Shown here: positions 32,742 through 33,127 of the stretch, one piece after another
How positions within the stretch are numbered: the stretch's first letter is position 1
Layout of the letters: every line of letters begins with the position of its first letter
Assembly: GCA_018649625.1 (NCBI GenBank)
Contig: JABIHN010000050.1
Span: 1-50,837 of the forward strand
From: Fidelibacterota bacterium
Lineage (GTDB): Bacteria; Fidelibacterota; Marinisomatia; Marinisomatales; UBA1611
Direction: 5' to 3'
Length of the DNA stretch: 50,837 nucleotides
Notes under the pieces: model-generated
Told to the model about the DNA's origin: nothing
The model's database searches: none
What the model saw: only the letters and a program-made list of their open reading frames with translations
Program-made: the position numbers and the translations under genes

Positions 32742-32816
<75 letters not shown>

Positions 32817-32820
32817 TATT

Positions 32821-33066
32821 TTGATTTATTCTATTTATATAATATACAGCAATTCTAAAGATCAATTTTATATTGGTCACACTCAAGATGTCTCAAATCG
32901 ATTAAAACAACATAACAACGGATATTCAAAATCAACAAAATTCGGAATTCCTTGGAAACTTTTACATGTTGAACATTTTGACTCAAGAAGTGCTGCAATA
33001 AAACGAGAATATGAAATTAAATCAAAAAAAAGTCGAAAGTATTTAGATTGGATAATAAATCAATAA
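32821..33066 (+). CDS. Small GIY-YIG endonuclease
   Basis: The open frame runs back into the tRNA gene to ATG 32773, but translation of tRNA sequence (ending in SVRSRPAP) is an artefact, so I choose TTG 32821, giving 81 residues. The GIY-YIG nuclease core is complete: YSIYIIYSNSKDQFYIGHT, the catalytic Arg in SNRLKQHNNG and the catalytic Glu in AIKREYEIKSK, then a C-terminal YLDWIINQ helix. It resembles the UvrC-N/YhbQ-type single-domain proteins. It has no partner domain for sequence recognition. It is bracketed by direct repeats of the tRNA 3' end, as in a minimal mobile element, and may be expressed by read-through from the tRNA promoter. Confidence 0.82.
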   Translation: MIYSIYIIYSNSKDQFYIGHTQDVSNRLKQHNNGYSKSTKFGIPWKLLHVEHFDSRSAAIKREYEIKSKKSRKYLDWIINQ

Positions 33067-33072
33067 TGAATT

Positions 33073-33127
33073 GAGCGTCCCGATAACTTTCGGGAAGGTC
33101 GTCGGTTTGATCCCGTACGGTTCCACA
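33073..33127 (+). repeat. Degenerate tRNA-Ala 3' half with replaced anticodon hairpin (direct repeat copy 2)
   Basis: GAGCG at 33073-33077 matches the end of the D arm of the true tRNA at 32763-32767. Bases 33078-33095 are the palindrome TCCCGATAACTTTCGGGA, standing where the 17-base anticodon arm should be. Then 33096-33127 repeat the T arm and acceptor strand (three mismatches). The 5' half is missing, so it cannot be a working tRNA. Confidence 0.85.

Follow-up and report, generated by a model that had tools for sequence, protein, structure and literature searches.

The window analysed here, the whole stretch of 50,837 nucleotides, contains a locus at which a small GIY-YIG nuclease gene is seated between an intact tRNA-Ala gene and a displaced half of the same tRNA, in which a palindrome takes the place of the anticodon arm. 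We favour the interpretation that this is a minimal, integrase-less element of about 310 bp which docks at tRNA genes and comprises a small GIY-YIG nuclease together with its cognate palindrome, carried within a partial tRNA; we assign this interpretation a probability of roughly 0.5. The anatomy of the locus, its recurrence across tRNA isotypes and phyla, the tandem arrays, the left- and right-hand forms, the association of nuclease with palindrome and the lineage-specificity of the palindromes are shown by the data below.

All features lie on the forward strand. The tRNA-Ala(GGC) at 32742..32815, the proposed docking gene, was found intact by ARAGORN and Rfam (RF00005, 61.8 bits; the sole Rfam match) and is the only full-identity copy in the window's genome. 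Its D-stem motif GAGCG (32763-32767) is followed by a 17-nt anticodon arm (CTTGAATGGCATTCAAG, 32768-32784) and, from 32785, by the 3' half, which begins AGGTCG. The GIY-YIG frame (32821..33066) has 81 codons counted from a putative TTG start at 32821, with the domain at 32827-33063 and the stop codon at 33064-33066, and is uninterrupted here and in most relatives. Its listed ATG, 32773, falls within the tRNA-Ala; between 32773 and 32820 the frame stays open through the tRNA (MAFKRSSVRSRPAP...), as it does in relatives, and automatic gene calls therefore begin within the tRNA. Beginning 6 bases past the stop codon, GAGCG reappears (33073..33077) and is followed by the palindrome TCCCGATAACTTTCGGGA (33078..33095), with a perfect 6-bp stem and a 6-nt loop, and by the displaced 3' half (tRNA positions 44-74; 33096..33126), which matches 32785-32815 of the intact gene at 28 of 31 bases, with three point changes. 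Joined, 33073-33126 reads GAGCG-TCCCGATAACTTTCGGGA-AGGTCGTCGGTTTGATCCCGTACGGTTCCAC, with 18 bases where the intact tRNA has 17. An earlier note, made from the sequence alone, had described this copy as more than a 3'-end repeat, had remarked on the near-equal spacing, and had identified a six-bp-stem palindrome in place of the anticodon arm; all three claims held, that on spacing exactly.

A five-base match such as GAGCG is weak evidence on its own; in relatives the same junction is backed by much longer stretches of tRNA, among them a longer form of this very piece. The palindrome rests on its recurrence and on genome-wide repeats of its kind, and its class (CCCGA-N2-10-TCGGG) is expected only 0.06 times per shuffled window. 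Comparison of empty and occupied tRNA-Ala loci among relatives delimits the proposed unit, nuclease gene plus palindrome-bearing tRNA half, to 32816..33126 (~310 bp), in which the GIY-YIG frame is the only gene; the presence of an integrase, as would be required of a conventional island, is not met.

The encoded protein matches PF01541 with 63 bits (cut-off 22.6; E 3e-17) over positions 2-77 of the 78-position profile. It is a member of the GIY-YIG superfamily by a sequence match above the curated cut-off, its nuclease activity being inferred. NCBIfam, PHROGs and PADLOC offered no specific family. Among structures in the PDB, UPF0213 and SLX1 are sequence relatives of the domain, and since SLX1 is a structure-specific nuclease, this relatedness fits a hairpin substrate. 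As a separate observation, on L045, L034 and L281, the nuclease ATG lies one or two bases past the tRNA end in some Pro-type units, which might yield a leaderless message after tRNA processing; at L034, every Asp unit has its own TTGACA-TATAAT-like promoter ahead of the pseudo-tRNA.

Recurrence was assessed by searching 245 genomes of the window's phylum with the nuclease protein as sole query and without selection on the palindrome. A same-strand tRNA ends within 100 bp upstream of the domain at 64 of 88 related GIY-YIG loci, an adjacency expected by chance at roughly one locus in a thousand. The best hits mostly adjoin Ala-GGC, Gly-GCC, Asp-GTC, Pro-CGG or Asn-GTT; the addition of 60 weaker relatives brought in Ser, Leu, Val, Met, Lys, Glu and Arg tRNAs. 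Downstream of the nuclease gene, the 3' part of the same tRNA was found with one arm substituted, namely the anticodon arm in Ala and Pro and the T arm in Gly and Asp. Both of these arms are swapped at L029 and L040, and all three arms in an upstream copy at L026. In a search with a single DNA pattern, more than 118 stretches of GTDB species genomes carry the swapped anticodon arm in the form GCG-TCCCGA..TCGGGA-AGGYCG, where about 2 were estimated by chance. They are drawn from Bacteroidota, Neomarinimicrobiota, Ignavibacteriota, Acidobacteriota, Armatimonadota, Chloroflexota, Nitrospirota, Kiritimatiellota, Verrucomicrobia and Patescibacteria.

Of 153 palindromes whose flanks were mapped, 120 stand in for the anticodon arm, 27 for the T arm and 6 for the D arm, with the caveats that tandem copies are included and that the GTDB share was pre-selected by the anticodon-arm pattern. 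The commonest gap is exactly the 17 nt of the anticodon arm. Upstream copies retain the 5' half of the intact tRNA and end soon past the palindrome; downstream copies retain a short left piece and the entire 3' half. The nuclease gene sits between the intact tRNA and the half with the palindrome. Most loci have it downstream of the tRNA; at L086, L089 and L114 it is found upstream, between a left-hand half and the intact tRNA. Units also occur in tandem: the array L281 comprises four near-identical nuclease units and 18 palindromes, with one intact tRNA-Asp at its end. In genome G094, a terminator-like hairpin follows the displaced half and not the tRNA abutting the nuclease, as would be seen had the insertion moved the original 3' half away in the downstream direction. 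The unit is absent at the tRNA in G127, of the window's genus, and in G129, of the genus of G130 and G128. These empty sites are diverged relatives, no base-exact empty site between near-identical strains being available, and tandem duplication followed by loss could therefore give much the same picture. Full or near-full tRNA copies with a palindrome for an anticodon arm also form an annotation trap: ARAGORN reports them as tRNA-SeC(tca), tRNA-Stop(tta), tRNA-???, Leu(cag), Ile(gat) or Ala(ggc) (L243, L239, L149, L116, L115, L161, L148).

The palindrome is not confined to tRNA genes. TCCCGA-N2-8-TCGGGA exceeded its reversed control in all 18 genomes counted, from several phyla, mostly by 10-fold or more and in a few by little; G070 holds 175 palindromes vs 1. 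Marinifilum has 66, and most of those read are intergenic and distant from tRNAs. Within the phylum, the median is 9 palindromes in 107 nuclease-positive genomes and 0 in 138 negative ones, a difference which holds when labels are shuffled within families (p 2e-4). Flavobacteriaceae with close nuclease relatives have a median of 14.5 palindromes vs 3 (p 4e-6). The association is imperfect: some nuclease-carrying genomes are palindrome-poor, and some without the nuclease have several. Of 26 genomes chosen mostly for an array locus at which no nuclease was seen, 22 encode a relative at some position. The base pair just inside the fixed stem co-varies (TA, CG, AT), being paired in 97 of 103 cases vs 48 in shuffles. 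The window's own genome holds few of these repeats, with three exact TCCCGA palindromes, one being the locus itself; the exact palindrome of the window occurs only there, among 10 of the looser class. No such palindrome was found on the contigs of its three other GIY-YIG hits (C75, C3, C29), and its other palindromes showed no GIY-YIG link, one reading as coding sequence and another being a 17-nt form present three times (one context read). The hit on C3 (L003, G000:C3:23348-23551) lies ~320 bp from a tmRNA gene, on the opposite strand.

Evidence for insertion of the dispersed copies is slight. Some are bounded by direct repeats of 9-10 nt (TATTCATTGA, CTTAGCCTT; L188, L273), possibly insertion footprints. 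The overall signal of target-site duplication is weak (8 of 70 vs 3.0), and we therefore make no claim of such duplication. A second short repeat (TTCC..GGAA / CTCC..GGAG) was seen in the T loop of tRNA-Ser copies near GIY-YIG genes (L302, L304), and similar segments adjoin dispersed TCCCGA palindromes in G070 (flanks in L272, L273, L280). Three hits to a 13-base palindrome core in viral contigs had no tRNA or GIY-YIG gene found beside them and were set aside as chance or unrelated.

Palindromes of other sequence replace tRNA arms elsewhere. At tRNA-Val the replacement is CTCCGA..TCGGAG (Ignavibacteria), at tRNA-Met it is TCCGCC..GGCGGA (Niastella), and at Asn, Arg and Leu it is TCCGGC..GCCGGA, TCCCGC..GCGGGA and TCCCTGCC..GGCAGGGA, respectively. 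Palindrome class follows the tree built from 68 nuclease domains, which requires 14 changes of class (minimum possible 10) vs 20.8 when shuffled. Nuclease lineages also track tRNA isotype (17-18 changes vs 34-36 in shuffles), and the TCCCGA class clusters beyond what isotype accounts for, only 14 of 500 within-isotype shuffles being as low (486 of 500 higher). The tree rests on ~80 columns, with many weak forks, and rare palindrome classes were assigned by hand. As a cross-test, TCCGCC..GGCGGA is enriched in four genomes of its class (30, 6, 20 and 9 copies), others being lower (p 0.018); the test is only partly clean, with many copies also in several genomes of unknown class. A tendency of the palindrome to keep the old anticodon was considered and rejected as not significant (11 of 78 vs 8.2).

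These results bear on the remaining proposals of the earlier note. A cassette-like swap is borne out by its recurrence at identical arm boundaries across phyla and isotypes, and tRNA halves with the same swap are numerous across phyla; its reference to the anticodon hairpin was too narrow, with T and D arms swapped too, at times two or three per copy. We can rule out that the swap arose through simple point decay of a tandem tRNA, because the flanks are near-perfect tRNA and the arm alone differs, in the same manner, in unrelated genomes. The suggestion of a REP-like palindrome held, given its dispersal through the genomes of relatives, as did the link to small GIY-YIG genes that the note had mentioned for Bacteroidetes: counts of the palindrome are associated with those genes, its copy number tracks the nuclease in the phylum and in Flavobacteriaceae, and a random, unlinked spread was not seen. 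That the palindrome is the recognition site of the nuclease is supported by co-variation, in the absence of binding data; that it is the cleavage site is only inferred.

Comparison with described systems yields partial likenesses. In tRNA-integrated islands, the target tRNA is split and then restored by the insert's own sequence (Islander, PMC4383910), and the crossover is commonly in the anticodon or T loop. Our locus meets their criterion of a restored tRNA with a displaced 3' fragment at the far end. Unlike islands, however, the docking unit has no tyrosine integrase and consists of ~310 bp with one GIY-YIG gene, its displaced fragment bears a palindrome for an arm, and left-hand forms and tandem arrays are common. 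With REP/RAYT systems (PMC2817692, PMC3733652) it shares short, mostly intergenic palindromes in tens to hundreds of copies, a single cognate nuclease gene flanked by palindromes, and lineage-specific pairing of palindrome and enzyme; the criterion of a dispersed intergenic palindrome is met in relatives and only weakly in the window's genome (3 exact copies). In contrast to REP/RAYT, the enzyme is a GIY-YIG protein rather than a Y1 HUH (IS200/IS605-type) transposase, the docking palindrome is embedded in tRNA halves, an intact tRNA stands on one side of the gene, and no GTAG tag was seen, inspection of the window and of the printed dispersed contexts having revealed no GTAG/GTGG head. As the tests for an integrase, a Y1 transposase and GTAG all failed, we file the unit under neither islands nor REP/RAYT. 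CGTC-type REPs, neisserial dRS3 included, lack a dedicated transposase (PMC3733652); such a gap is one that a GIY-YIG partner would close.

The closest precedent for the pairing of enzyme and repeat is Ssn (2025), site-specific single-strand GIY-YIG nucleases with NTS repeats in Neisseria. That system likewise joins a small GIY-YIG nuclease to a genome-wide repeat; the pairing here rests on co-occurrence and co-variation only. Neither tRNA docking nor arm replacement is known from Ssn systems. The tyrT / rtT repeats of E. coli follow a tRNA gene in tandem and include its 3' end. They resemble our arrays in this respect and are not known to have a nuclease or an arm-replacing palindrome. A search of open-access full text returned nothing relevant on palindromes in place of tRNA arms next to GIY-YIG genes, or on GIY-YIG genes with REP or tRNA copies.

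The mechanism that we envisage is as follows. The nuclease would recognise the palindrome in its hairpin form, most likely where the DNA is single-stranded, and cut at that place. The unit flanked by two palindromes, made up of a tRNA 3' half, the nuclease and a short piece of tRNA, would thereby be freed, or would enter a cell, bearing a tRNA half at its end, and this half would recombine with the homologous half of a resident tRNA gene. Recombination would rebuild an intact tRNA, leave the nuclease directly beside it and displace the old half behind the palindrome. Docking at the tRNA is suggested by the anatomy; binding, cutting, excision, the intermediate and transfer are all inferred, and none was observed. 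We favour the docking element because enzyme and palindrome co-vary in both type and number, as would be expected of a nuclease and the site it recognises, and because tRNA pieces flanking the palindrome are what homologous landing needs and leaves behind. Most dispersed palindromes, however, are far from tRNAs, and tRNA docking therefore leaves them unexplained.

The main rival is an Ssn-like, non-mobile system, which remains possible. In it, the nuclease would cut single-stranded DNA at scattered palindromes and so shape DNA uptake, repair or recombination; the side of a tRNA gene would merely offer a convenient promoter and be prone to recombination, so that halves of tRNA with palindromes accumulate there by tandem duplication. 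The predominance of dispersed, intergenic palindromes that track the nuclease speaks for this account, as do tandem arrays that resemble duplication and the action of Ssn in Neisseria. It does not, however, explain the exact replacement of tRNA arms at many isotypes with tRNA kept on both sides, nor presence and absence at one tRNA among close relatives. Classical homing would have the nuclease cut the intact tRNA of an empty allele at the anticodon or T arm, whereupon repair copies the unit in and the palindrome renders the copied half immune to cutting. Swaps at both of these arms and nuclease lineages that follow tRNA isotype are in its favour, and GIY-YIG is a known homing fold. We nevertheless consider homing unlikely: an intact, apparently cuttable tRNA persists beside the nuclease, the displaced copy alone having the swapped arm, and the palindrome is conserved in sequence and found genome-wide, neither of which immunity alone would need.

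A function in RNA, in which the pseudo-tRNAs are co-transcribed with the tRNA as decoys, processing signals or small RNAs and the nuclease is a passenger, draws on the position of the copies within the tRNA transcription unit, their good folding as RNA and the preserved pairing of the hairpin. It is very improbable, however, in that dispersed palindromes outside tRNA units track the nuclease, and in that no acceptor stem is possible, since the 3' acceptor strand is missing from upstream copies and the 5' one from downstream copies. Lastly, one might suspect chance, an artefact of assembly or a tandem tRNA that has merely decayed, in a genome of 115 contigs whose pseudo half carries three point changes. 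The recurrence of this anatomy in isolates and in genomes that are complete or in a single contig (Parapedobacter, Marinifilum, Flavobacterium, CP053447, G003), together with statistics far beyond chance, leaves next to no room for this; it is refuted by recurrence.

A bolder reading is also available, towards which we are rather more sceptical than convinced: a new class of minimal mobile element, in which a lone GIY-YIG nuclease moves without integrase or transposase, the lineage-specific palindrome being its cut site and the tRNA half its landing homology, and the host becoming seeded with a REP-like palindrome. Were this true, it would identify the enzyme so far lacking for a large number of palindromic repeats in bacteria, and were mobility shown, these units would be among the smallest self-sufficient mobile elements known. 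The finding links three matters: the unexplained palindromes scattered through genomes of Bacteroidota, Marinimicrobia and others, the small GIY-YIG genes that lack a known role, and the incomplete tRNA copies near tRNA genes. It also accounts for false tRNA annotations, and offers a testable pairing of enzyme and site with natural variants, one palindrome per lineage.
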